From Streptomyces europaeiscabiei (lineage in GTDB: Bacteria; Actinomycetota; Actinomycetes; Streptomycetales; Streptomycetaceae), in the NCBI RefSeq assembly GCF_036346855.1, contig NZ_CP107841.1:1178001-1242000 (forward strand): 64,000 nucleotides of DNA, in the 5' to 3' direction. The notes under the pieces were generated by a model that saw only the letters and a list, made by a program, of their open reading frames with translations, was not told the DNA's origin and searched no databases. Within the stretch, counting starts at the first letter, position 1, and every line of letters starts with the position of its first letter. This document shows positions 17,853 through 49,036 of this stretch, one piece after another. A program made the translations under genes and the position numbers.

Positions 17853-18266
17853 TCAGCGGTCTATCGTGGCCGAGCGTTCGGGCTGGCGGGCGTCCACTCG
17901 GAGGTGCTCGCCCACGCGATTCACCAGCAGCGTCATCTCGTAGGCGATCTGCCCGATGTCCGCCTCCGCGGCGCTGAGCACGCACAGGCAGCTACCCGGT
18001 CCGGCCGCGGTGACGAAGAGCACCGCGTCGTCGAACTCGATCATCGTCTGCCGTACGCCACCGGCTCCGAAGTGGCGGCCCGAGCCCTTGGCGAGGCTGT
18101 GCAGTCCCGACGAGACCGCGGCAAGGTGTTCGGAGTCCTCGCGCCGCAGGCCGGTGCTCGCCGCGGTGACGAGCCCGTCGTTGGACAGCACCAAGGCGTG
18201 CCGTATGGGGTCCACGCGCTCGGTCAGGTCGTCCAGCAGCCAACCGAGTCCCGCGTTCTGCACCAT
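17853..18266 (-). CDS. Roadblock/LC7 protein, second CvnB-like copy of the conservon
   Basis: The 137-residue protein (ATG 18266, GGAGTAGGAACG upstream) is a Roadblock/LC7 domain protein. It shares long stretches with the other CvnB-like protein of this locus: LGWLLDDL, RHALVLSNDGL, REDSEHLAAVSSGLHSLAKG, GRHFGAGGVRQTMIE and IGQIAYEMTLLVNRVGEHL. In conservons such proteins associate with the small GTPase and sensor component at the membrane. It lies about 225 bp downstream of cvnD on the same strand, so it probably has its own promoter or is at the end of the operon. Confidence 0.88.
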   Translation of the reverse strand: MVQNAGLGWLLDDLTERVDPIRHALVLSNDGLVTAASTGLRREDSEHLAAVSSGLHSLAKGSGRHFGAGGVRQTMIEFDDAVLFVTAAGPGSCLCVLSAAEADIGQIAYEMTLLVNRVGEHLRVDARQPERSATIDR

Positions 18267-18491
18267 CGTTCCTACTCCCCGTTTCGTCGTTCCCCCCTGG
18301 CAAGGAGGATCCGACGATTCAGCCTTCCCCACTGCTGCCGTCGGAGCAAGCAGAAGGGGGACATGGCAAGGAAGATGACCGACAAGGCACGGCGGCTCTT
18401 CTTCCCGAACGGCGACAACAGGTGCTTCCCCAACCGAAACAGCGGTGTCAAGGGACGGAAACCGGCCAGGAACGGGCGTGTTGACGCCGGT

Positions 18492-19097
18492 TCAGCCCAC
18501 GGAGTCGAGCAGCCGGGCCGTGTGCATCCGTCCGGCGTATTCGACGAGCCGTATCAGTACTTCCTTCCCCGAGTCTCGGTCCCGGGCGTCGCAGAGGACC
18601 ACGGGGGTGCCCTGGTCGAGGTCGAGGGCGCGGGAGACGTCGGGGGCGTCGTGCGCGCGGGCTCCCGAGAAGCAGTTGACGGCGACCACGAACGGGATGT
18701 GGCGGTGCTCGAAGTAGTCCACGGCCGGGAAGCAGTCCTGCAGTCGCCTCGTGTCGGCGAGGACGACGGCACCTAACGCTCCTTGTGCCAACTCGTCCCA
18801 CAGGAACCAGAACCGGTCCTGGCCCGGTGTGCCGAACAGGTAGAGCGAGAGCCCGGACCTGATGGTGATGCGCCCGAAATCCATGGCGACGGTGGTGGTG
18901 ACCTTCTGATCCACCCCGTCGGTGTCGTCCACCGACTGGCCCACCTCGCTCAGGAGTTCCTCGGTGCGCAGAGGCCTGATCTCGCTGACCGCGCCGACCA
19001 GGGTGGTTTTGCCGACGCCGAATCCACCGGCGACGAGGATCTTCAATGCCAGGGCGCCCGTGTCGCCCTGTGTCTCATCGGAGTGCTCGGAGACCAT
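18492..19097 (-). CDS. cvnD: Conservon GTPase (CvnD-like, ATP/GTP-binding protein)
   Basis: The 201-residue P-loop protein has G1 GGFGVGKTTLVGAVSEI (near residue 25), followed by RTEELLSEVG, KVTTTVAMDFGR, the G3-equivalent LFGTPGQDRFWFLWDEL and VAVNCFSGA in place of NKxD. This is the standard CvnD sequence pattern. In Streptomyces these Ras/MglA-like switches act with the kinase-like CvnA and the Roadblock and DUF742 proteins in a membrane-associated signalling complex linked to development and secondary metabolism. About 200 bp separate it from cvnC, whereas the other genes of the locus overlap. Confidence 0.92.
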   Translation of the reverse strand: MVSEHSDETQGDTGALALKILVAGGFGVGKTTLVGAVSEIRPLRTEELLSEVGQSVDDTDGVDQKVTTTVAMDFGRITIRSGLSLYLFGTPGQDRFWFLWDELAQGALGAVVLADTRRLQDCFPAVDYFEHRHIPFVVAVNCFSGARAHDAPDVSRALDLDQGTPVVLCDARDRDSGKEVLIRLVEYAGRMHTARLLDSVG

Positions 19098-19298
19098 CGA
19101 TCACTTCTCTCGGGAGTGTCGGCCGCGGTCGACATCGGTACGGCTGCATCCGTACGGCTGTGAGGAGTCAGCATCATGGCAACTGCCACTCCTTCGCGTG
19201 GCGTTGGACCGTTTTTTCATATCAACGACCGCTTTGTTCATGTTCGGTACCGGGTGGAGGCACAACTCGGTACGTGCTGGACCCGACTGCTCGTTCAT
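19098..19298 (-). other. Gap between cvnC and cvnD with a 65-codon open frame
   Basis: On the minus strand an ATG (19298) directly follows the cvnC stop codon and its frame ends (19101) three nt before the cvnD start, filling the gap exactly. The predicted peptide has 65 residues and includes NMNKAVVDMKKRS. Its third-position GC is low for this genome and it resembles nothing I know. It could be a leader, a coupled small ORF or chance. An internal AT-rich stretch could also hold a cvnD promoter. Confidence 0.25.
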
Positions 19299-19739
19299 CT
19301 ACAGCGCCCGCAGCCCCTCGATCACCTCACGCAGGATCCGTTCGTCCGGCAACTGCGCGGGCGGTACGGGGCGGCTGACGGTGACGCGGCCCAGTTCCAG
19401 GAGGTCGCCGAGGAGTACCCGCACCACTCCGACGGGCAGATCGGCGCCCGCGGCAAGTTCGGCGACCGACTGGGTCTCGGTGCGGCACAGTTCGGCGAGT
19501 GCGCGGTGTTCCGGGCCGAGCGAGGTGTCAACGTCGGCACCGGGTGCACCGCTGTCGAGCGAGACCAGTGCGATCAGGTCGAAGTGGGCCCCGTTCGGGC
19601 CGGGCCGGGTACGGCCGCCCGTCATGGCGTAGGGGCGGACGAGGGGTCCGGCCTCGTTGTCGTACCACCGGCTGCCCGGCGGCTCGTGCGAAGCGCCTGT
19701 GCTTCCTTCGGTCATGAGCACGGCCCGTCCCTGGTTCAT
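19299..19739 (-). CDS. cvnC: DUF742 protein (CvnC-like)
   Basis: The 146-residue protein has the DUF742 hallmarks: SRWYDNEAGPLVRPYAMTGG at the N-terminus, then FDLIALVSLD, LGPEHRALAELCRTETQSVA, AGADLPVGVVRVLLGDLLEL and the end DERILREVIEGLRAL. The central part looks like a winged helix-turn-helix. In conservons this protein works with the Roadblock protein and GTPase. Its ATG overlaps the cvnB stop by 4 nt. Confidence 0.92.
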   Translation of the reverse strand: MNQGRAVLMTEGSTGASHEPPGSRWYDNEAGPLVRPYAMTGGRTRPGPNGAHFDLIALVSLDSGAPGADVDTSLGPEHRALAELCRTETQSVAELAAGADLPVGVVRVLLGDLLELGRVTVSRPVPPAQLPDERILREVIEGLRAL

Positions 19740-20173
19740 CCGGCCGCGGGCGGACGCGCGCCGGAGCGGGTCGGTGTGTAGAGGTGCTCCCCGACGCGTT
19801 TCACCAACCGCGCCATCTCGTAGGCGACCAGCCCGATGTCGGCCGTGACCGAGGTCAGGACGGCGAGGCAGGAGCCGTCGCCGGCTGCGGCCACGAAGAG
19901 GAAGCCGTCGTCCATTTCCACCATGGTCTGACGTACGCCGCCGGCACCGAAGTGGCGGCCCGTGCCCTTGGCGAGGCTGTGGAAGCCGGAGGCGACGGCG
20001 GCCAGGTGCTCGGCGTCCTCGCGCTTGAGGTCGCTGGAGGCGCCGACCGCAAGTCCGTCGTTGGACAGCACCACGGCGTGCCGTACCTCGCGTACGCGCA
20101 GTACCAAGTCGTCCAGCAGCCAGTCGAGTTCACCGGACCGCTCGGTGGCCCTGGTGCTCGGGTCCTGGATCAT
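19736..20173 (-). CDS. cvnB: Roadblock/LC7 protein (CvnB-like)
   Basis: The 145-residue protein begins MIQDPSTRATERSGELDWLL and contains the Roadblock/LC7 signature (VVLSNDGLAVGASSDLKRED, HFGAGGVRQTMVEMDDGFLF, DIGLVAYEMARLVKRVGEHL). AAGGAGA precedes the ATG by 6 nt and the start overlaps the cvnA stop (ATGA). It is expected to bind the CvnD GTPase. The open frame continues upstream antisense-free through cvnA, but that is a GC-rich artefact. Confidence 0.92.
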   Translation of the reverse strand: MIQDPSTRATERSGELDWLLDDLVLRVREVRHAVVLSNDGLAVGASSDLKREDAEHLAAVASGFHSLAKGTGRHFGAGGVRQTMVEMDDGFLFVAAAGDGSCLAVLTSVTADIGLVAYEMARLVKRVGEHLYTPTRSGARPPAAG

Positions 20174-22704
20174 GCGGGGTCTCCTTCGCTGCTGTCGCTG
20201 CCCGTCGCAGGGCCGCGGGTGACGCCTGAGCCGGGTGCTCTGCCGCCGCCTCGTACCCAGCCGTCGCGGTAGGCCGCCATGCGGTCCCGTACGAGTTCCG
20301 GGGTGCGTTCGTCGTCGGCCCGGGAGGGTGCCGTCGACGTGGGTTGACCAGCGCGCTGTTCGCGCAGCTGGGGTGCGAGGTGCGCCTGGCGTACGCGCCG
20401 CGGCAGTTCGTCGGTGCGTTCCGGTTCCGGCGGGTGGCGGTGCGGCCGGAGAGCGGTGACGCCGGGCGGCGGCTCGGGCGGGCCGTCGGCCGTGGTCCGC
20501 CCGGCGGAGGCGACCGGGGCCATGAGGGCGCGCCGGTCGGCGGACCGTTCGACGGGTTCCTGGTGCGGGACGGCGGCCACACGCGCGTACTCGCGTTCCT
20601 CGGGCTGCGGCCGTGCTTCGGCGGTGGCGCCGGGGGAACGTTCCGGCAGGCCGCTGTGGAGCAGGGGGGTGGGGAGGAGGACCACCGCGGTGGTGCCGCC
20701 GTAGGGCGAGGTCCGAAGGTGGACCTTGATGCCGTGGCGGGCGGAGAGGCGGCTCACCACGAACAGGCCGAGCCGGTCGCTGTCGAAGAGGTCGAGCGCC
20801 TCGGACTGTTCGATGCGGCGATTGGCTTCGGCGAGGGTCTCCTTGCCCATGCCGAGCCCCCGGTCCTCGACCTCCACGGCGTATCCGTTGCCGACCGGTT
20901 CCCCGGTGATTCGCACGCGCGTGTGGGGTGGCGAGAACTGAGCGGCGTTCTCCACGAGTTCCGCCAGGAGGTGGGTGAGGTCGGCGACCGCGGTGCCGAC
21001 GATCTTCGCCTCGGGGAGTTGCCGTACCTCCACGCGCGCGTAGTCCTCGATCTCGGAGACGGCCGCGCGGACCACGTTCGTCAGGGAGACAGGCAGGCGC
21101 CAGGCGCGTCCAGGAGCGGCTCCGGAGAGGATGATCAGGCTCTCCGCGTGGCGTCGCATACGCGTGGTGAGGTGGTCGAGGCGGAAGAGGTCGCTGAGTT
21201 CGTCGGGGTCGTCGGAGCGTCGTTCCATGCTGTCGAGCAGGCTCAGTTGGCGGTGCACGAGGACCTGGCTGCGGCGTGCGAGGTTGACGAAGACGCCGGA
21301 GATGCCGCCTGCGAGTTCGGCGCGCTCGACCGCCGCTCTCAGGGCCGCTCGGTGCACGGTGCCGAGGGCCTCGGCGACCTGACCGGTCTCGTCCTCCGCG
21401 AGGGGTCCCGACGGGGCCTCGCCGTCGATGTCGATCTCCTCTCCGGCGCGCAGTCTTCGCATGGCGTGGGGGAGTTTGCGGCGGGCGATCTCCAGGGCGT
21501 CGTTGCGCAGGCTGACCAGCTCGACGACCAGTCCGCGTCCGATGCGTACGGAGATGACGAGGGAGGCTGCGACGGCGGCAAGGCCCAGGAGCACCGCGGC
21601 CCCCGCCGGGGTCAGCAGGGCGCGGGTGAACGGGTCGGCGCGGTCGGCGACGTCTCGTCCGGCGTCGGACTCGATGGCGCGCATGTCGTCCCGCACGCGC
21701 GCGTGGGCAAATTTCCAGGCTGCCTCGGGAGCGGCTTGGAGCGCCTGGGCTCCGGGGTGGCTCGCGAGTACCTCGTCCTCGACGGCGCGCAGGTCGGCGT
21801 AGGCGCTTCCTCCGGCGAGTTCCTGCCAGGCGGCACGTTCGGGGCCGCGCAGATCGACACCGGCGGCTTCGGTCAGAGTGCGACGGGTGTCGACGGCGCC
21901 GGTGAACAGGCGCAACCGTTCGCGGTCGAGGGTTCCGGCCAGGTGGGCGCCGGCCAGGACCGCGTCCTCCTGGGCCAGTGCCTCTCCCGCGCGGGAGAAC
22001 TCGAGCAGCACGCGCGCGTCGGAGCCGAGGTCGGCGTCCTGGATGCCGGTGAGCGCGCCGCCCACACCGAAGGCCGTGGAGATGGTCTTGCTGTACCGCT
22101 CGTAGGTCTCGGTCCAGCTGCTGCTGCGGTCGAGCACCGCCGTTCGCAGCACTCGCAGTTGTCCGGCTCCGGTCACGAAGCCGGTGAGGCGTTCGGCCAC
22201 TCCTGGGGGCAGGTCGGTGCCGTCGGCGATGGTGTGCCGGTCCCCCAGGCGCAGGGCGTCGACCGCCCGGTCGGTACGTCGCGCCAGTTTCCGCAGCACG
22301 CTCTCCCGCTCGGCGGAGGGCCCGGTGGCGTAGCGTACGGCGGCCACACGCTCGGCCTGGAGCGCCGCGACGGCGTCGGCGACGGGGCCGCGCACGGAGG
22401 CGTCGACGCGCTGCGACTGCCGGATGCGGGCGACGTCCTGGGCGGTGGTGACGGTGGCGTACGCCCACAGGGCGAGCAGGGAGACGACGGGCACCATGAG
22501 CAGGCAGACGATCTTGGCCCGGACGGTGCGGGGGCGTATGTGCCATCGTCCCGCGCGTGTGGGCGGCCCGATCGTCGGGGCGCCACTCTCGTCAGGGTCG
22601 ATGCGCTCGTCGGCGGGAGGTCCGGCATGGGCGCGGCGGCCGCGTATCGCGGGCTGGGGCGGCGTCTCGGCGCCGGCTGTCGGGGTCCTGCGGGGTGTAC
22701 GCAT
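20170..22704 (-). CDS. cvnA: Conservon sensor, nitrate-sensor-type histidine-kinase-like protein (CvnA)
   Basis: The 844-residue membrane protein has a first membrane segment near residues 65-85 (IVCLLMVPVVSLLALWAYA) and an extracytoplasmic NIT-type helical sensor (about 90-330). A second membrane segment (AAVLLGLAAVAASLVISVRIG) precedes a HAMP-like region and a histidine-kinase-like module. LDHLTTRMRRHAESL takes the dimerisation-box position; the N-box is HLLAELVENAAQFSPPHTRV and the G-box DRGLGMGKETL. The last 200 residues are a Pro/Arg/Glu-rich tail typical of CvnA. It heads the overlapping cvnA-B-C unit, 61 bp after the MHYT gene. Confidence 0.92.
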   Translation of the reverse strand: MRTPRRTPTAGAETPPQPAIRGRRAHAGPPADERIDPDESGAPTIGPPTRAGRWHIRPRTVRAKIVCLLMVPVVSLLALWAYATVTTAQDVARIRQSQRVDASVRGPVADAVAALQAERVAAVRYATGPSAERESVLRKLARRTDRAVDALRLGDRHTIADGTDLPPGVAERLTGFVTGAGQLRVLRTAVLDRSSSWTETYERYSKTISTAFGVGGALTGIQDADLGSDARVLLEFSRAGEALAQEDAVLAGAHLAGTLDRERLRLFTGAVDTRRTLTEAAGVDLRGPERAAWQELAGGSAYADLRAVEDEVLASHPGAQALQAAPEAAWKFAHARVRDDMRAIESDAGRDVADRADPFTRALLTPAGAAVLLGLAAVAASLVISVRIGRGLVVELVSLRNDALEIARRKLPHAMRRLRAGEEIDIDGEAPSGPLAEDETGQVAEALGTVHRAALRAAVERAELAGGISGVFVNLARRSQVLVHRQLSLLDSMERRSDDPDELSDLFRLDHLTTRMRRHAESLIILSGAAPGRAWRLPVSLTNVVRAAVSEIEDYARVEVRQLPEAKIVGTAVADLTHLLAELVENAAQFSPPHTRVRITGEPVGNGYAVEVEDRGLGMGKETLAEANRRIEQSEALDLFDSDRLGLFVVSRLSARHGIKVHLRTSPYGGTTAVVLLPTPLLHSGLPERSPGATAEARPQPEEREYARVAAVPHQEPVERSADRRALMAPVASAGRTTADGPPEPPPGVTALRPHRHPPEPERTDELPRRVRQAHLAPQLREQRAGQPTSTAPSRADDERTPELVRDRMAAYRDGWVRGGGRAPGSGVTRGPATGSDSSEGDPA

Positions 22705-41322: not shown

Positions 41323-41784
41323 TCACAGCACTACACGGAACAGGTTCCCGGACGGGTCGACCACGGCGTCGAGGCGGAGGCCCACACGGAGGGCGGGATG
41401 CTGCGAGCGCTTCCAGGTGGCCTCGAACGTCCGGAAGCCCAACCCGCTGACCCGCAGGACGACCACGGCACCGCCGTCGTCCCCGGTGTCCCATTCGGTC
41501 AGCTCGGTGATCTCCGCGGTCGCCGGAACCCCGAAGGCGTCGAGCCGCCGGTTGTGCCTCCGTTCGGCGGCGACGGTGAGCCCCACCACGAAGCCCAGGG
41601 GAACGAGGACCACCGTGCACACCATGCCGGTGACCACCAGGCCTTGGCCGACGAGGACGCCGAGGACCATCAGGAACGGTCCCAACAGCCCGATCGCCAC
41701 GAGAAAGAGGTATGTCCAGGCGGCCGCCCAGGGACCGACCTTCGACACCTGTGTCGGCGCGGGGCCGTTCTCCCCGTCGCTCAC
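41323..41784 (-). CDS. DUF3592-like membrane protein
   Basis: The 153-residue protein (GTG start one base after the previous stop) has two hydrophobic helices (AAAWTYLFLVAIGLLGPFL and LVVTGMVCTVVLVPLGFVVG). A cytoplasmic beta-rich domain follows: FGVPATAEITELTEWDTGDD, VVVLRVSGLGFRTFEATW and RVGLRLDAVVDPSGNLFRVV. This resembles the small barrel of DUF3592 proteins and the second such protein at 48119. It is the last gene of a three-gene minus-strand operon. The function is unknown. Confidence 0.7.
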   Translation of the reverse strand: MSDGENGPAPTQVSKVGPWAAAWTYLFLVAIGLLGPFLMVLGVLVGQGLVVTGMVCTVVLVPLGFVVGLTVAAERRHNRRLDAFGVPATAEITELTEWDTGDDGGAVVVLRVSGLGFRTFEATWKRSQHPALRVGLRLDAVVDPSGNLFRVVL

Positions 41785-41785
41785 G

Positions 41786-42067
41786 TCAGAGCCGCGGTCT
41801 CTCGGCCACGCCCCGCGCCAGCCGCGCCGCGAAGGCGCGCAGGGCGTCGAGGCGCTCCGGGTCGTAGGGGAAGGAGTGTCGGTGCACTCCCGGCCGCTCG
41901 ATGACGATCTCCGTCCTGGGCTTGCGGCCGGTGCCGAACTCCAGCCGGGGTTCCTGCCAGATGTGCAGGCGGTGCGCGTCGCCGAAGCCGAACAACTCCA
42001 GCACCCGGCCGTCGAAGGTGAGCAGGGTGGTGTCGTTCGCCAGCACTTCGTACGGCGGTGACGTCAC
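41786..42067 (-). CDS. Small hypothetical protein
   Basis: A 93-residue beta-rich protein (LANDTTLLTFDGRVLELFGF, RLHIWQEPRLEFGTGRKPRT, then a C-terminal helix DALRAFAARLARGVAE). Its start overlaps the preceding gene's stop by 4 nt, so the two are coupled. The strand pattern suggests a PH-like barrel. No family is recognised. Confidence 0.7.
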   Translation of the reverse strand: MTSPPYEVLANDTTLLTFDGRVLELFGFGDAHRLHIWQEPRLEFGTGRKPRTEIVIERPGVHRHSFPYDPERLDALRAFAARLARGVAERPRL

Positions 42068-42489
42068 GGCGTCTCTCCGTCTCCCGCGTAGAGATAACCG
42101 CCGGGGTTGGCGGGGTCCGCGATCAGTAGCACCTGATCACCGGCGCGGGGGACGCGCAGTTTCGAAACGATGGTCTGGAGGGTGAACGGGTCGGCGGTGA
42201 CCCCGGTCAGCTGGAGGACCAGGTCGACGACCGGGTCGAAGTTGACCAGCTTGCCGGTGTCACTGATCGACACGACGACGGCGGGGACCGTCGGTACGCC
42301 CATGGCGAGCAACTGCCGCACGGTGGCACCGGAGTGGTACGCGCCGAGCGACTGCTGGAGCTTGGCGTAGTCCTCGCCGCCGAGTGTCGCGCGCGTCATA
42401 CGGCCGTAGAAGCCCTTGCCGCCGGCCACCTGCTCCGCGATCTTGGCGGCCTTCTCCTCGCGGCTCTTGCCCTTGCCGAAGATTCCCAT
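42064..42489 (-). CDS. Hypothetical protein, first gene of a three-gene operon
   Basis: The 141-residue soluble protein starts at ATG 42489 with GGAAGGG upstream. It has a basic N-terminal helix (MGIFGKGKSREEKAAKIAEQ) and a domain containing LAMGVPTVPAVVVSISDTGK and VNFDPVVDLVLQLTGVTADP, which look like the variable-strand barrel of small DUF3592-associated proteins. It is divergent from the CHAT/TPR operon with 113 bp between them; that region carries a 16-bp sequence repeated upstream of the 48119 gene. Confidence 0.7.
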   Translation of the reverse strand: MGIFGKGKSREEKAAKIAEQVAGGKGFYGRMTRATLGGEDYAKLQQSLGAYHSGATVRQLLAMGVPTVPAVVVSISDTGKLVNFDPVVDLVLQLTGVTADPFTLQTIVSKLRVPRAGDQVLLIADPANPGGYLYAGDGETP

Positions 42490-42550
42490 GCTGTGCCTGC
42501 CCTTCCGGTCCGTTCTGCCTGGTGGTGTGGACGTTAGGAGGCGGGCAGCG

Positions 42551-42566
42551 CCTACCGATCCCAGGT
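42551..42566 (-). promoter_or_regulatory. Repeated 16-mer promoter-like element, copy 1
   Basis: On the minus strand it reads ACCTGGGATCGGTAGG, 62 bp before the start of the gene at 42489; an identical copy stands before the minus-strand gene at 48994. TAGG could be the start of a -10 element. It also lies 37 bp upstream of the plus-strand CHAT operon. Confidence 0.45.
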
Positions 42567-42602
42567 TCGACCGCCAGTTCCCCCAGGACGTACGCTCTGC
42601 CC

Positions 42603-43979
42603 ATGCCGTCCCCGAGCCAGCCGTCGACCGGCGAGCGCCGTCCGCGCGCCATGGTCATCGACACGGCTTGGCGCGGCCTCGGGCCGGGTCCCCAGGCGCT
42701 GAGCGGGCCCGGTGGCGCGCCGCTGACCCGGACGGTCAAGCTGATCGTGCTGCCGCTGATCGTCCGGCCCGCGCTGCGTCCGGAGCTCGCCGCCGACTTC
42801 CTCGACGCGCGGCAGGCGGAGCGACTCGACGCGCTGATACGGGAGTCCGGTGCGGTTCTGGACGCGACGGCACGGTGGTTCACGCTGCTGAAGAAGACCC
42901 GCCGGGCACTGGGGATCGTGGCGGGCAACCCCCAGGACCTGTACTTCCAGCGGTGCTTCGAGCTGGCGATCGAGCACGGGGCGCCGGGGCCCGGCGCGGA
43001 CGCGGTGGCGAGGGCGGTACTCGAAGACGTCGTGGACGCTTCCGGCGGACGGACAGTGGAGGCGCTGAAGGAGTATCTGGCGGACGCCGCCCGGCGCGCC
43101 CGGCTCGACGCCGAGCTGGTGGCGGCGTGGGACGGACGTGAAGCGATACCGCTACCGGGCGCCGCCGATACAGGGCTGGCGGCCGAGGTTCTCGACGTCT
43201 GCGGTGCGGCGGGGACGGCGGGAGCTGATTCGCCGGCCTTCGCCACCATGGTCCGCGCCGGGCACGGCAGCCTGCTCGGGCGAGCCCTGTGGGCGGCGCA
43301 CCCGGCCGATGTCTGGGACTGCGCCGACGTACCCCCGCACCTCGGACTGACCGCGCACCGCGTGCCGCCGCGCCCCGAGGTCGGCCGGAGCGCCTCGACC
43401 GCCACGCTTCCCGCGCCGTTCGACCGCACGCTCTTCGAGCGGCTCTTCACCGTGCTCCAGGCGTCGACCCACCGCGAGCAACTGGCGACCGTGCCGGAGC
43501 TCGTGCGGCGGGAGGCCGGCCGCAGCTGCGCCCCGCTGGGCCTGTACGACGAGAGCCTGCGCGTCGCCGTCGTGCTCGGCGGCCGACTCGCGGTGGGCCT
43601 CGATCCGCTGGGCGCCGGGACCTCCGTGGCGGGGTCGACGGCGGCACACCGCATCGTCAACAGCCGCTGGCAACGGGAGGCTTCGGTCCTCCGGGCCCGC
43701 AGGATGACCGTCTCCCCCCGCCCCGACCCGGACGGCGGTGTGCTGAACGCTCTCGCCCAGGACCTGCGCACGCCGTGGGCCGCGTACATGCGGCGCCTTT
43801 GGGTACGGCTGCACGGGCGCGACGTCCGCGACGCGGCACTGCCCGACGCGGCATCGGCCTGGGGCGTGCTCGACGGGGTCGCCCGCTCGGTGATCATGGA
43901 CCACCGTGCACGAGTCCGTACGGCACTGCGCACCCTGTCGGCGACCACCGAGCCCGCCGCCGAGCCGAGGAGTGCGTGA
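42603..43979 (+). CDS. Unknown protein, first gene of CHAT/TPR operon
   Basis: The 458-residue protein starts at ATG 42603. It has no signal peptide or clear membrane helices. Early segments are KLIVLPLIVRPALRPELAAD, SGAVLDATARWFTLLKKTRR and NPQDLYFQRCFELAIEHG. A later alpha/beta-like part has SLRVAVVLGGRLAVGLDPLG, and the C-terminus is helical (WAAYMRRLWVRLHGRDVRD). I recognise no family. Its stop overlaps the next ATG (TGATG), so it is translated with the rest of the operon. By context it may be the sensor, effector or regulator of a caspase-like conflict system. Confidence 0.8.
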   Translation: MPSPSQPSTGERRPRAMVIDTAWRGLGPGPQALSGPGGAPLTRTVKLIVLPLIVRPALRPELAADFLDARQAERLDALIRESGAVLDATARWFTLLKKTRRALGIVAGNPQDLYFQRCFELAIEHGAPGPGADAVARAVLEDVVDASGGRTVEALKEYLADAARRARLDAELVAAWDGREAIPLPGAADTGLAAEVLDVCGAAGTAGADSPAFATMVRAGHGSLLGRALWAAHPADVWDCADVPPHLGLTAHRVPPRPEVGRSASTATLPAPFDRTLFERLFTVLQASTHREQLATVPELVRREAGRSCAPLGLYDESLRVAVVLGGRLAVGLDPLGAGTSVAGSTAAHRIVNSRWQREASVLRARRMTVSPRPDPDGGVLNALAQDLRTPWAAYMRRLWVRLHGRDVRDAALPDAASAWGVLDGVARSVIMDHRARVRTALRTLSATTEPAAEPRSA

Positions 43980-45190
43980 TGCCTGAACGGCGCTGTGCCA
44001 TCACGCGAGCCGAGGGCCGCGCCGTACGCATCGCGGGACCCTCCGCCGGTCCCCCCTTCACCCGGGCCGTTCTCGAAGTCGCGGGCGCCGTCCTGACCTG
44101 GCCCGTCCTCGGCCCGACAGGTCTTCCGGCAGCGGAGATCCACGATGTGGGGCAGGCCCAGCAGTGGCTGTGGGCGGTCTACGGCGAGCGTACGGCCGCC
44201 GCTGTCGACGCCGTCGCGTCGGGAACCCCGGCCGCCGAGCTGACGCTGCCCGAGCAGCCGACCGCCCTCGCCGAGGCTGCCGCCCGCCTCGCCCTCGGGC
44301 TCTGGGCGTCCCGCTGGTGGCCGACGTCGTACCTGGACGGGATCCCCGCGCTCGACCCAGACGTACTGGGGCTGGAGTTGGCCACGCTGACTCACGAATG
44401 CCAGCAACTCCTCGACGAGTCGGGCGAGTTGGAGGGTGCCGAACTGCTGGAGGAGCACCTGGCCGCGCTCGACCCGCTGATCCGTTGGCGGCAGTCGGCG
44501 GCATCGCCTCGCCAACTGGACCGTGTCCTACGGCTGATCGATGACACGGCCGACAACGTCGGGCTGGACGGGGAGGCACTACGGCGCCTCCGGTCGGCGC
44601 TGGAACCGGACCGCAGGCCGACCGCTACGCCGCTCGACGTCGCCGAACTCTTCGTACGGCAGCAGCAGGAGTTCGCCCTCGCGGCAGGTGGCCTCCGCAC
44701 CGCGACCGGCCGCGTGATCGCCCGGGGCCCGGGGACCAACGACTGGTGCCGCTATCCTCCAGGCTTCGTGGACGCGGCCGAGGACGCCGTGTCCTGGACG
44801 GCGTACGCGCTCGGCGCCGGGCGGCGGATCGAGGTCGAGGTCGTCGCCGACATCGCGGCCCCCGTGGGCGGGGCGCACCTCGCGGCGGAGGTCCACGTGG
44901 ACGGCAGTCCGCCGAACCGCGTTCCGCTGGCCAGGCGGGACGACGTGTGGACCGGCCGGGCGGACCTGGACATCCCGGCCTCGACGACACCGGGCATCGA
45001 GGTCGGCATCCTGCTGCCGGGGTTCGACCCGGGACCGGGTGCCGATGACCGTGCGGCACGTGAGGCGGTACGAGCCCTGGCCCGGCACCGGCTCGGCGTC
45101 GCGGCGGCGCCGCACGACAGCGAGGCCGCACGCCAGGACCCGTTCCTCGCCGAGATCGCGGCCGCCGCTGCCGTGGAGGAGGACTTCTAG
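43979..45190 (+). CDS. Unknown protein, second gene of CHAT/TPR operon
   Basis: The 403-residue protein starts at ATG 43979, overlapping the previous stop by one base. The N-terminal two thirds look helical (ALDPLIRWRQSAASPRQLDR, LRLIDDTADNVGLDGEALRR). The C-terminal third is beta-rich (RRIEVEVVADIAAPVGGAHL, AEVHVDGSPPNRVPLA, TPGIEVGILLPGFDPGPG). No known family is apparent. Co-translation with its neighbours suggests a subunit or adaptor of the same complex. Confidence 0.8.
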   Translation: MPERRCAITRAEGRAVRIAGPSAGPPFTRAVLEVAGAVLTWPVLGPTGLPAAEIHDVGQAQQWLWAVYGERTAAAVDAVASGTPAAELTLPEQPTALAEAAARLALGLWASRWWPTSYLDGIPALDPDVLGLELATLTHECQQLLDESGELEGAELLEEHLAALDPLIRWRQSAASPRQLDRVLRLIDDTADNVGLDGEALRRLRSALEPDRRPTATPLDVAELFVRQQQEFALAAGGLRTATGRVIARGPGTNDWCRYPPGFVDAAEDAVSWTAYALGAGRRIEVEVVADIAAPVGGAHLAAEVHVDGSPPNRVPLARRDDVWTGRADLDIPASTTPGIEVGILLPGFDPGPGADDRAAREAVRALARHRLGVAAAPHDSEAARQDPFLAEIAAAAAVEEDF

Positions 45191-45193
45191 CCC

Positions 45194-46864
45194 ATGCCGG
45201 AAGACCCGGAAGACCCGAAAGGCCCGGAAGGCGCGGAAGGCGCGGCGGAACAGGGGGAACAGGAGGAACAGGCGGCGGGGCTCAGCTACGGCGAGCCCTT
45301 CGACAGCGGCTTCGCGCTCGCCGAAGACCATCAACTCATCCCGGATCTCCCAGCAGCGCTGGCCGTCTACGGCGAACTCCTCGCCGTGGCCGAGTCGTTC
45401 GAGGACTCCCCCGACGTACGACTTCTGCGCGGGCACCTGTTGTCCGACATCGGGACGGTTCAGCTCACGGCCACGGATCTGCCCGGGGCGGCCCTGTCCA
45501 TCGAGCGGTCCCTCGATCTGGTGCGGGGCGTCGCGTCCGTGCCGATGGGACCGAACGGCCGCCGACTGTGGCTGGAGATCCTGCTGAAGACAGTGCTGGC
45601 CAGGGTCGAACTGCTGCGCAGGACCGGGCGGTTCGACGAGGCGCAGGAGGCGATGGACGAGGCGACGGCCCTGTTGTCGGAGTTCGACGACCCCGAGGGG
45701 CTGCGCACCGCCGAGATCGGCCTGAGCCGGGTGCATCTGCTGATGGACCGCAGCGCGTGGGGCGCGGCCGAGGAACTGGCCTCCGCGCTGGTGGCCGACG
45801 CGCCATTGGCCGAGCCGTATCTGCTGGACTGCCTGGGGGTCGTCTGCGCCTCGACCGTGCGGTTCGAGCAGGCGGAGGACTACTTCGCCCGCGCGGAGGA
45901 GGCCTATCTGGCGCTGGGCCACCACGCGGGGCGCCAACAGGTGCTCTCCCACCGAGCGTACGCGGCGCTGCGGGCCGGCGACCTCGACCGCGCGGAGGAG
46001 TTGTACGCGGAGGCCGCCGAGATCTTCGAACGGCAGGGCCAGGCCGAGGACTTGGCGGTCTGCGAGCAGGCCCGTGCCGCCATCGCCGCACACCGCGGGG
46101 ACGCGGCCGGCGCTGCCGCTCTGACGGCGTCCAGCCTGGCCCGCTTCCAGCAGGTCGGTGCCGCGATCGCCGCCGCCGACACCATGCTGATGGGCGCCCG
46201 GCACGCGTACGAGCGGGGCGACATCGACGAGATGAAGCGGCTCGCCCAGGGCGCGCGGGACGTGTACCAGGAGCGCGGGGTGTACGAGCGGTGCGCCCAG
46301 GTGGACCTGATGCTCGCGCGAACCCTTGAGGACAACCTGAGCCGGACCGACCACGGCGTCCACGAACGCACCTCGCTCGCAAGCGCGCTCTCCCTCGCTC
46401 TGCCCGCCGCCCTGACACTGGAGGCGGCCCGCTACGACTTCGCCACCGCCCACGCCCGCAGCCAGTGGCTTCAACTGGCCGACGAAGCCATGCAGTTGGT
46501 CTTCCGCCTGGCTCTCCGCAGCAACGACCAGGGGTTGATCTTCGAGCTGGTGGAACACCGGTGCGCGGGCGCCTCCCTGGCGCTGAGCCGTACGTCCACC
46601 GCCGACAAGGCAGCGGCGGTCTTCCCGGACGCCGCCATGAAGACGTACGCCCCCGATGACGACGCTCCCCTGACGCTGGGCGGCATCGCGGCCGAGGCCG
46701 CCGCCTGTGTCGGCCTGCGGGTCGCACCGCCACCGAGGATCGTCATGTCGGCGGAGGCGGGCGGCCGTACCGCGCTCCAGGAGTACGTCCAGGCAGCCGA
46801 GTTCCGCTATCACCGGCGGATCGTGAGCGAGGAAGAGGTGCCGTTCTGTCCGCCGACGATCTGA
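45194..46864 (+). CDS. TPR-repeat protein, partner of CHAT protease
   Basis: The 556-residue protein begins with an acidic tail (MPEDPEDPKGPEGAEGAAEQ) and then consists of repeated helix pairs of TPR type across about residues 40-460. Examples are LRRTGRFDEAQEAMDEATAL, VRFEQAEDYFARAEEAYLAL, LRAGDLDRAEELYAEAAEIF and VGAAIAAADTMLMGARHAYE. The C-terminal 90 residues form a separate region (GGIAAEAAACVGLRVAPPPR). TPR proteins often bind and regulate CHAT proteases; the CHAT gene follows directly, so this is the likely scaffold or substrate of that protease. Confidence 0.85.
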   Translation: MPEDPEDPKGPEGAEGAAEQGEQEEQAAGLSYGEPFDSGFALAEDHQLIPDLPAALAVYGELLAVAESFEDSPDVRLLRGHLLSDIGTVQLTATDLPGAALSIERSLDLVRGVASVPMGPNGRRLWLEILLKTVLARVELLRRTGRFDEAQEAMDEATALLSEFDDPEGLRTAEIGLSRVHLLMDRSAWGAAEELASALVADAPLAEPYLLDCLGVVCASTVRFEQAEDYFARAEEAYLALGHHAGRQQVLSHRAYAALRAGDLDRAEELYAEAAEIFERQGQAEDLAVCEQARAAIAAHRGDAAGAAALTASSLARFQQVGAAIAAADTMLMGARHAYERGDIDEMKRLAQGARDVYQERGVYERCAQVDLMLARTLEDNLSRTDHGVHERTSLASALSLALPAALTLEAARYDFATAHARSQWLQLADEAMQLVFRLALRSNDQGLIFELVEHRCAGASLALSRTSTADKAAAVFPDAAMKTYAPDDDAPLTLGGIAAEAAACVGLRVAPPPRIVMSAEAGGRTALQEYVQAAEFRYHRRIVSEEEVPFCPPTI

Positions 46865-46881
46865 CCGACCCGAACCGTCCG

Positions 46882-48126
46882 GTGGTCCAGGTCCGCCTCG
46901 CCGACGCCGGTGACCTGCACATGACCTGGACGTGGACCCGTGGGGCCCAGGGCTTCGGCACCGGGTACACCCCGGGGCCGGACGTGGACGAGGCCGTCCG
47001 CGCGCTGGCCGCCGAACTGCCGGGCGGCGGCACGGAAGGCATGCGGCGCGCGTTCGAATCCGGCGCGCTGGCCACGTACGAGGAAGAGCGCCGCCTCTCC
47101 CGCATGCTGGCCGAGGTGCTGTGGCCGCCGGGCCTGACCGACCAGATCCGCCAGGTGTCCGCCCACCTGGGCCGTCCGCTGATGCGGCTCCAGCCGTCGC
47201 CCCGGGTCGCCCAGGTCCCGTGGGAGCTGCTCGCCGTGGACGGTGACGACAGCGACGTACGGCTGCTCGACCTCGTGGACATCGCCACCACGGCACCGGC
47301 ATCGCTGCGCCGGGCAGGTACCACCCCGACCGATCAAAACCCGGACTCGGACGCCGTGGTTCTCGTCCTGGACCCCCGCGTCCCCGGCTTCCGCGCCGAC
47401 TCCCCGCTCGGCTCGGTTCTGGGGCAGCCCGGCTCGGACCCGGCGCTGCTGTCCCTCGTAGAACGGAGGCTCGACGCGGGCTCCGTCGTACCGTCCGTCG
47501 CCGCCCCCGCCGAGGCCTTCCGCCGCACCGACCTCGACCGCGACTGGCTGGGCGAGGCGCTGCGCAAGGGTGCCCGTCGCCTGATGTACGTCGGTCACGT
47601 CAGCGGCGCCCCCGTCGAGGGCGGGCAGAGCGAGGACGTCACCCTCCACCTGTGCTGCGGCCCGGAGACCACCGGGATGACCGAACCGGTGCGCACCCAC
47701 CGCCCGTTGTCCGCAAAGGACCTTCTCCTGGGCACGCTCCCGCTGCGCGCGGACGGAGTACCGGGCGCTCGACTCTGGCCCGCACCGCCGCGCGTCGCGC
47801 TGATCGCCTGCGAGAGCGGCGGCGATCTCCGCTTCGCCGAGTCCTTCGGCCTGGCGACGGCAATGATCCACAACGGCGCCCAACTGGTCACCGCCACCCG
47901 CTGGGTGCTCCCCACCAGCTTCGCCTTCCACCGCCTGGCCGGTCTGCCGGAGTCCGTACGTCCGCTCACGGAGGCCGTGGTCGCCGTGGACGCGGCCCAC
48001 GAGGACCACGACCCGGTCCGCCGTCTCGGCGCCTGGCAACGACAGCGGCTCGACCAATGGCGCGCCGACCGCCGGATCGAGCACTCGCCCCTCCTCTGGG
48101 CGGCCCTGACCTGCATCGTCAGGTGA
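46882..48126 (+). CDS. CHAT-domain (caspase-like) protease
   Basis: From GTG 46882 the protein is 414 residues. The CHAT pattern is clear: PRVAQVPWELLAVDG, strand VVLVLDPRVPG, the catalytic His239 in RRLMYVGHVSGAP, and the catalytic Cys310 in PRVALIACESGGDLRFAESF followed by IHNGAQLVTATRWVLPTSFA. CHAT proteins are cysteine peptidases related to caspases and separase and occur in bacterial conflict systems, usually with TPR partners. The GTG lacks a ribosome-binding site; a CTG at 46846 has GGAAGAGG seven nt upstream and would overlap the TPR gene. It ends a four-gene operon. Confidence 0.85.
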   Translation: MVQVRLADAGDLHMTWTWTRGAQGFGTGYTPGPDVDEAVRALAAELPGGGTEGMRRAFESGALATYEEERRLSRMLAEVLWPPGLTDQIRQVSAHLGRPLMRLQPSPRVAQVPWELLAVDGDDSDVRLLDLVDIATTAPASLRRAGTTPTDQNPDSDAVVLVLDPRVPGFRADSPLGSVLGQPGSDPALLSLVERRLDAGSVVPSVAAPAEAFRRTDLDRDWLGEALRKGARRLMYVGHVSGAPVEGGQSEDVTLHLCCGPETTGMTEPVRTHRPLSAKDLLLGTLPLRADGVPGARLWPAPPRVALIACESGGDLRFAESFGLATAMIHNGAQLVTATRWVLPTSFAFHRLAGLPESVRPLTEAVVAVDAAHEDHDPVRRLGAWQRQRLDQWRADRRIEHSPLLWAALTCIVR

Positions 48127-48994
48127 AGGGCCAGGGGTGGTGGAGGCAGTAACCGCCCAGTCCGATCAAGGCGATCCCGGTGGCCAGCAGGGTGGCGACG
48201 AACCTGATGTGCGCCGTGCGCTCACGGCGTTCGTGGTCGGGGTCTGCGGTGAGGAGGGACGGGTCGGCGGGGGCGTAACGGAGGGGGATGTCACGGCCGA
48301 GGGACTTGGCGACGTCCCGGATGCCCTGCGCACACAGCGCGGTGACCTCGACACCCTCGTGGGTGGTGAAGGCAACGACGGAGGCGTGGCTGACGCTCTC
48401 GCCGCCTTCGCCGTCGGAGTGGACGTCCCTGGTGACGGCGACCACGCGGCCCTGGACGGGGACGCCCGCGGCCAGTTGAGCGGCGCGGGCGCGGGCGTAC
48501 TCGCCGTCCCGGCTCAGCGCGACGACGAGGAGCAGCAGGCCGCCGACGCAGATCAGCCCCCACTGCCAGCCCCACGCGAAGAACGACTGGACGACCAGCC
48601 CCAACACCAGCAGGATCACCATGCAGGTCGGCCCGCCGGCCCCGGAGGTCCGCCCTTCGCTGTCCAGCATGAGGTAGAACCGCTCCGGCCGCCGCCGCGG
48701 AAACCGGACCGGGAACTCCTGCCCCACCCAGGCCACTTGCACCCGGTCGCCACGCTTGTTCTCGTGCCGCATCCTGAACTCCCGCCCGGTGCCGGGGTCC
48801 TGGTACGCGATCGTCACCGGTATCCCGCGATCCCCCGGCTCACCGTGTCCCGGCGGATGCACCTCCACGACCCGAGCCGTCACCCACACCGCCCGCTGCG
48901 GCCGGGTCAGCCCGGCCAGCGAACACGCATAACCCAACAACGCCAGCCCAGCGGGCACCGTCCACCACAGCCCGAGCATCTTCTGCAGGTCCAT
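48119..48994 (-). CDS. DUF3592-type membrane protein
   Basis: The 291-residue protein has an N-terminal membrane helix (LALLGYACSLAGL), an extracytoplasmic or cytoplasmic beta domain (VTARVVEVHPPGHGEPGDRG, IPVTIAYQDPGTGREFRM, GQEFPVRFPRRRPERFYLM), two central helices and a second beta domain with the GRVVAVTRDVHSDGEGGESV and YAPADPSLLTADPDHERRER features of DUF3592. A final helix closes the chain. It converges on the CHAT gene with an 8-bp stop overlap. It resembles the shorter protein at 41323 on the other side of the operon. Confidence 0.78.
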   Translation of the reverse strand: MDLQKMLGLWWTVPAGLALLGYACSLAGLTRPQRAVWVTARVVEVHPPGHGEPGDRGIPVTIAYQDPGTGREFRMRHENKRGDRVQVAWVGQEFPVRFPRRRPERFYLMLDSEGRTSGAGGPTCMVILLVLGLVVQSFFAWGWQWGLICVGGLLLLVVALSRDGEYARARAAQLAAGVPVQGRVVAVTRDVHSDGEGGESVSHASVVAFTTHEGVEVTALCAQGIRDVAKSLGRDIPLRYAPADPSLLTADPDHERRERTAHIRFVATLLATGIALIGLGGYCLHHPWPFT

Positions 48995-49020: not shown

Positions 49021-49036
49021 CCTACCGATCCCAGGT
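49021..49036 (-). promoter_or_regulatory. Repeated 16-mer promoter-like element, copy 2
   Basis: Identical to 42551-42566 and in the same orientation relative to the gene it precedes, 27 bp upstream of the start at 48994. Confidence 0.45.

Follow-up and report, generated by a model that had tools for sequence, protein, structure and literature searches.

Within a 64,000-nucleotide stretch of the Streptomyces europaeiscabiei genome (contig NZ_CP107841.1; the whole stretch is called the window hereafter), an operon at positions 42603 to 48126 encodes two proteins of no recognised family, which we call P1 and P2, a TPR protein and a CHAT (caspase-like) protease. We give slightly better than an even chance to the reading that this module is a protease-based signalling core that controls a small envelope/secretome regulon via a promoter box, TGGGATCGGTAG, located 14 nucleotides (nt) upstream of a TAnCnT-like -10 element. 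The analysis yielded a fixed gene set, a His/Cys dyad, TPR-CHAT fusions, the placement of the box, its scarcity in the tested genomes without the module, and targets that are mostly exported or membrane proteins. Beyond the statement that genes and box belong together, everything said below about function is what we infer. A widespread CHAT module with two Pfam-less families and a promoter box of its own appears to be new: a literature search found nothing on this module within the texts and terms searched, none of the matches to the box string gggatcggta was on bacterial regulation, judged by title, and the passage on TPR proteins in the available part of PMC13118837 does not concern the module.

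A fixed four-gene set in actinobacteria

The four genes lie on the forward strand: P1 (42603..43979, 458 residues), P2 (43979..45190, 403 residues), the TPR protein (45194..46864, 556 residues), which is the partner of CHAT, and the CHAT protease (46882..48126, 414 residues), with the predicted catalytic residues His239 and Cys310. P1 and P2 are joined at a TGATG; 3 bases then separate P2 from the TPR gene, and 17 the TPR gene from CHAT. An earlier note, made from the sequence of this DNA, had described this layout with the same codon counts and had assigned the third and fourth proteins to TPR and CHAT with the same two residues; both descriptions were borne out. The third protein matched Pfam TPR_12 (38.3 bits against a cut-off of 30.1) and gave only three weak matches to NCBIfam, all far below cut-off. 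The fourth matched CHAT PF12770 (38.4 bits against a curated cut-off of 24), a family also matched by 30/30 members of the CHAT alignment (E <= 0.001), and the His239 and Cys310 positions were invariant in 106/106 aligned rows (the window and 105 loci). By profile the CHAT domain is real, and the lack of a caspase fold that the note had named as fatal to its reading was not seen. We take the fourth gene to encode a putative protease of the CHAT family (PF12770). The host genome (10.95 Mb) holds a single match to it.

We mapped the module in 112 loci: 31 from genome surveys (L034-L064), 80 named ones (the best 80 of 461 relatives) and the window. Six were set aside, one with only a P1 remnant (L064) and five that a contig end interrupts (L051, L081, L093, L097 and L130); among the 106 complete loci, four pairs are duplicate records, which leaves 102 distinct. 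All loci were selected via P1 and the profiles for the gene-set count were built from the same loci, and on this basis the four genes shared a strand in 106/106, each centred no more than 7 kb from P1. The order was P1-P2-TPR-CHAT in 93 loci and TPR-CHAT-P1-P2 in the other 13, and TPR and CHAT were fused in one reading frame in 33/106. L043 (genome G037, of the window's genus) has a divergent module: its box is a variant, and an extra TPR-like protein of 835 residues is encoded between P2 and TPR.

The note had found no family for the first two proteins, and we found none either: P1 and P2 matched nothing in Pfam, PADLOC or NCBIfam at E values up to 1. Against Pfam, 55 P1 relatives gave no family, and 50 P2 relatives gave one chance-like match and no CATRA family. 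Against PDB chains, with E values up to 1 allowed, the P1 profile gave no match and the P2 profile a single one, at chance level. P1 is basic (isoelectric point, pI, 9.5) and is predicted to be all helical, and its predicted structure matches no solved PDB fold; we regard it as a candidate DNA-binding or adaptor component. P2 is acidic. Its model predicts an alpha/beta N-terminal part, a low-confidence linker at about residues 211-243 and a beta-sandwich at 244-354 that weakly resembles immunoglobulin or carbohydrate-binding-module folds. P2 proteins end in a conserved acidic-aromatic tail, with F or Y as the final residue in 90/99, and the C-terminal ends of P1, TPR and CHAT are unlike this tail. 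The tail (45130-45190 in the window) comprises an acidic stretch and the final F/Y after a FLAEI-like segment, and is a candidate docking tail or degron. By family, the median pI was 8.9 for P1 (range 5.7-10.7), 4.6 for P2, 4.9 for TPR and 5.7 for CHAT. A recognised DNA-binding domain was found in none of the module proteins.

Among the matches listed (120 each), named relatives of P1 and P2 were mostly from Streptomyces. Named carriers of the module belong to Streptomyces, Kitasatospora, Actinacidiphila, Kutzneria, Streptomonospora, Phytomonospora, Nocardia, Rhodococcus and Antrihabitans, to which we add Mycobacterium, a genus inferred from the PF05481 lipoprotein neighbour of the module. In genome surveys P1 was present in 12/150 Streptomyces genomes, in 98/148 inferred Mycobacterium genomes (a few as fragments only) and in 82/98 Nocardia genomes, a genus assigned via the 100% identity of one member to an N. 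brasiliensis protein; phylum-wide it was present in 10/346, three of them marginal. In the same 150 Streptomyces genomes, P2 occurred in the 12 genomes of P1 and as a fragment in G079, and CHAT relatives occurred in these 12 and, as fragments or weak matches only, in G007, G013, G067, G079, G121 and G125. This patchy joint occurrence rules out a housekeeping identity for P1 and P2, and housekeeping families occurring without the others, which the note had named as its second point of failure, were not what the surveys found.

Groups of Mycobacterium loci, and groups of Nocardia loci, have flanking genes in common, and the P1 tree tracked host families, with exceptions that include L043 and L045. 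At L064 (G265, of another family) the flanks are present with only a short P1 remnant, and the module has been lost. The same flanks, which by reading we take to be glnA-like, RDD-like and DUF4191-like, carry the full module in L046-L048.

The promoter box and its candidate regulon

Alignment of the divergent intergenic regions (43 Streptomyces-type and 31 Nocardia-type) revealed one common block, which reads, toward the accessory genes, TGGGATCGGTAG followed by G or C. In the window the first box, TGGGATCGGTAGG (42551..42563, reverse strand), lies between P1 and the divergent gene F5 and is read toward F5 (42064..42489, reverse strand), which encodes a 141-residue accessory protein of the MGIFGK type; its cluster counts 46 members across the mapped loci. 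The box is followed after 14 nt by a -10-like element, TAACGT (42531..42536, reverse strand). On the other side, a second -10-like element, TACGCT (42591..42596, forward strand), belongs to a block conserved among the 43 Streptomyces-type regions; it ends 6 nt ahead of the start codon of P1 and would serve that gene. A second box (49021..49033, reverse strand) lies 26 nt before the start codon of D7 (48119..48994, reverse strand), a gene convergent with CHAT that encodes a DUF3592 membrane protein of 291 residues.

The exact 15-base form of the box occurs twice in the host genome, both times at the module locus. Across 108 distinct loci (1.87 Mb), CCTACCGATCCCA, the exact 13-base complement of the box, occurred 88 times, versus a mean of 0.03 and a maximum of 1 for 30 letter permutations. 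A slightly degenerate site was present within 450 bp of the P1 start in 91/108 loci. Four loci, L043 and L046-L048, carry a variant box, GTGATCGGTAG, and a quick tree, which marks L043 as a long branch, groups their P1 proteins with that of L051 in a single clade (support 99). L043 carries the variant box and the P1 of this clade though its genome belongs to the window's genus. In this one clade the box tracks the module instead of the genus of its host, a pattern that favours a reader encoded by the module.

We scanned 60 whole genomes, 29 with and 31 without the module, hand-chosen from the survey tables and not a random sample. Box sites were found in 29/29 module-bearing genomes (84 sites) versus 7/31 module-less ones (8 sites), where the sites at the module are partly built in, since module loci from 22 of the 29 genomes had been used to derive the pattern. 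The reversed pattern gave 6 sites in the 60 genomes. Half of the 84 sites lay outside the module and are free of this built-in effect: inferred Mycobacterium contributed 38 (in 10 of 13 genomes), Nocardia 4 (in 4 of 7) and Streptomyces 0 (in 9). At 7 of the 8 module-less sites, the A-rich left flank and the -10 were both missing.

The box might instead be the target of a general actinobacterial regulator unrelated to the module, with module and envelope genes as mere members of its regulon. No DNA-binding domain was recognised in the module, and the extra sites in inferred Mycobacterium lie far from it, as such a regulator would have it. We regard this as unlikely, given that the module-less genomes tested from the same genera hold few sites, seven of the eight in a chance-like context, and that the variant box keeps to the module clade in a host belonging to the window's genus.

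For the sites outside the module we fetched the surroundings of 41: 37 of the 38 from inferred Mycobacterium (one near a contig end was omitted) and the 4 from Nocardia. An open frame of at least 60 codons begins within 130 nt of the box at 40 of them; such frames are easily found in GC-rich DNA, and the target frames were chosen by coding score. Start codons cluster at two distances, 25-26 nt (13 sites) and 65-75 nt (15 sites) after the box, and the shorter spacing is compatible with leaderless transcripts. A hydrophobic 17-mer was present in 35/41 of the targets versus 70/165 background genes and, in a stricter test on called genes only, in 15/29 versus 34/170. Target families comprise a small membrane protein (MKLVPA type, cluster of 8), DUF4232, DUF4870 and F5-like proteins. 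By eye, about a dozen targets share a WCPG...CH pattern that marks an uncharacterised family of small secreted proteins. This family recurs downstream of the box in L211-L236, with several copies in inferred Mycobacterium genomes; the two members tested had no Pfam match.

These targets also bear on the possibility that the module serves quality control of exported proteins, degrading or processing lipoprotein, DUF3592 and small secreted precursors with which it is merely co-regulated, and exerts no control over transcription. The box is indeed common to genes for the lipoprotein (PF05481), DUF3592, DUF4232, DUF4870 and small secreted proteins. We think quality control very unlikely: a simple hydropathy measure shows neither a clear signal peptide nor a clear membrane segment in P1, P2, TPR or CHAT (17-residue maxima 1.07-1.55), and this explanation leaves the scarcity of the box in module-less genomes unaccounted for.

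When 145 sites were pooled, with the box letters themselves fixed by selection, a TAnCnT-like -10 appeared 14 nt after the box (T in 95, A in 90, C in 115 and T in 124 of 145). Because of this position the box would span the -35 region of sigma-70-like promoters. A canonical extracytoplasmic-function (ECF) sigma factor promoter was considered, since CGTC stands at one offset in 32/38 Streptomyces F5 sites and ACT at one offset in 23/37 inferred Mycobacterium sites, but was set aside because the pooled -10 was TAnCnT-like. A regulator that overlaps the -35 is favoured, since this is the -10 that the pooled sites show.

Proposed mechanism, neighbouring genes and the defence alternative

We propose that TPR and CHAT assemble into one cytoplasmic protease complex and that P2, with its two parts, loose linker and acidic-aromatic docking tail, serves as its tethered substrate or inhibitor. 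A signal, probably the state of the envelope, would activate CHAT, which would then cut P2 (or P1), by analogy with Csx29, Csx30 and CASP-sigma. Cleavage would release or inactivate a regulator that occupies the box, and box occupancy would change. P1, alone among the four in being typically basic, is the best candidate for this regulator or for its carrier in a set where no DNA-binding domain was recognised. A bolder form of the proposal, in which P1 founds a new class of helical sequence-specific regulators that act at the -35/TGGGATCGGTAG element, is switched by TPR-CHAT cutting P2, and controls an actinobacterial secretome, that of mycobacteria included, strikes us as rather doubtful.

Several observations weigh against the proposal of a signalling core that acts through the box. 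Cleavage, DNA binding and regulation are all deduced from sequence and models, and the regulator could be encoded elsewhere, because the P1 model matches no solved fold. The covariation of box and P1 comes from one clade of four loci, one of them the long branch L043. The nine Streptomyces genomes scanned, which are of the window's own genus, had no box site beyond the module locus. For several target frames the coding score is low or below zero, and the -10 next to the window's second box (before D7) is poor, GAGCCT. Of the sites in module-less genomes, L245 (Nocardia) stands ahead of a gene in surroundings that match in part. A box within 450 bp of P1 is missing from 17/108 loci, some of which are cut short or have diverged. 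At three Nocardia loci, L128, L131 and L137, the box lies 5-7 kb from P1 beside a displaced lipoprotein gene; the box has moved with that gene, which makes control of the core operon less certain than control of the accessory genes. With two mismatches allowed, the host genome gave 27 box matches versus 16 for the reversed control, and looser matches therefore mean little. In the window alone, at one mismatch or fewer, 4/100 shuffles likewise reached two matches.

The accessory genes stood on the strand opposite the core in all gene orders listed. In the window, F5 is followed by F15 (41786..42046, reverse strand), an 86-residue accessory protein without a Pfam match, and F10 (41323..41784, reverse strand), a 153-residue accessory membrane protein whose Pfam matches all fall below cut-off. 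Five accessory families are beta-rich or membrane proteins (BAR6, F5, D7, F10 and F16), and 96/106 loci have one or more of them beside the core. That these five share one DUF3592-like domain was considered and is unproven (best hhalign E about 0.002, probability below 15%). A lipoprotein family stood beside the core in 47/106 loci, and both members tested matched PF05481. The only recurring core neighbours are lipoprotein, membrane and small accessory families; most other neighbours carry no individual annotation. We scanned 80 of the 212 neighbours (L065-L104, mostly Streptomyces, with no control set) against PADLOC: 41 families were matched, no defence family by more than one neighbour, and the 25 shown had one neighbour each. 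Farther off in the window, 17853-22497 resembles what we take, from the beginnings of the sequences, to be a roadblock/GTPase/sensor-kinase 'conservon' cluster.

Actinobacterial CHAT caspase-like proteases are usually filed under defence or cell death. The earlier note had done the same: of its interpretation, a CHAT/TPR operon travelling together with two unrecognised families stands, and the conflict system or programmed cell death is not supported. In such a system an invader signal would activate TPR-CHAT, which would kill or arrest the cell. The patchiness of the module in Streptomyces (12/150, with fragments elsewhere), one homologue that is plasmid-borne by name, and the emptied site L064, where a P1 remnant is left in another family, would suit such a role, and a TPR-CHAT protease does act in type III-E CRISPR (PMC10028731, in the part available). 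We nonetheless judge defence quite unlikely. The four core proteins matched 0 PADLOC families (E <= 1), the recurring neighbours are lipoprotein, membrane and small accessory families, the module is common in two genera, and the extra box sites precede exported proteins. Because most neighbours are without annotation, we treat the defence role as less supported rather than discarded. Taken together, the fixed gene set and the promoter signal of exported-protein genes make a surface-control system more likely than an antivirus system.

If the module is a signalling core of this kind, the physiological role of bacterial CHAT proteases becomes directly testable via a candidate regulon that the box marks. 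Exported families of no assigned function (PF05481, DUF3592, DUF4232, DUF4870 and unnamed ones) gain a context, and the module may reveal a new type of transcription regulator.

Comparison with known systems

CATRA ternary conflict systems, reportedly described by Burroughs and Aravind in 2020, also combine a CHAT/caspase-like protease with TPRs in actinobacteria. The name appears in the available part of PMC8195603. The TPR and CHAT profiles of our module matched TPR-CHAT proteins of CATRA loci (hhalign 95.5% and 80.5%). Membership was nevertheless rejected: CATRA-N (PF20269) is absent from the host genome, the same model finding it in 13/246 other genomes, and P1 and P2 gave an hhalign probability below 1% against CATRA-N proteins. 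The module has the fixed partners P1 and P2 and a promoter box. The 12 CATRA loci that we fetched (L161-L172) have large TPR-CHAT-type proteins in 7/12, of about 1070-1420 residues where complete, and CATRA-N proteins of 425-839 residues, some with a C-terminal part that we label by reading as glycosyltransferase-like. Some of these loci also carry WD-repeat-like proteins.

HetF of filamentous cyanobacteria is a CHAT-domain protein that acts in division and heterocyst development (PMC8406250, in the part available), and resembles our module in having a CHAT domain and, if our reading holds, a physiological, non-defensive role. It differs in architecture and comes from another phylum. We know of no P1, P2 or box with HetF, for which we made no search.

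The proposed function resembles protease-gated transcription. In the type III-E Craspase/CASP system (Cas7-11, Csx29, Csx30 and CASP-sigma), the TPR-CHAT protein Csx29 is reported to cut Csx30, an inhibitor of an ECF-like sigma factor (PMC10028731, in the part available). The two have in common a TPR-CHAT protein with a His/Cys dyad and, as proposed for the module by analogy, a two-domain partner with a loose linker and a transcriptional output. They differ in that no Cas7-11, CRISPR array or sigma gene recurs in the module gene maps, no search having been aimed at them, that the P1 profile has no PDB match and P2 one chance-level chain, and that the proposed output is exported and envelope genes. 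DegS-RseA-sigmaE, the regulated proteolysis of envelope stress described in the same partial source (PMC10028731), is a functional analogue in which proteolysis frees a transcriptional regulator of envelope genes; its proteins are unrelated to those of the module, where no sigma/anti-sigma pair was recognised. Claiming membership of neither system, we suggest that the module may work like the protease-gated transcription control of Craspase and DegS-RseA.

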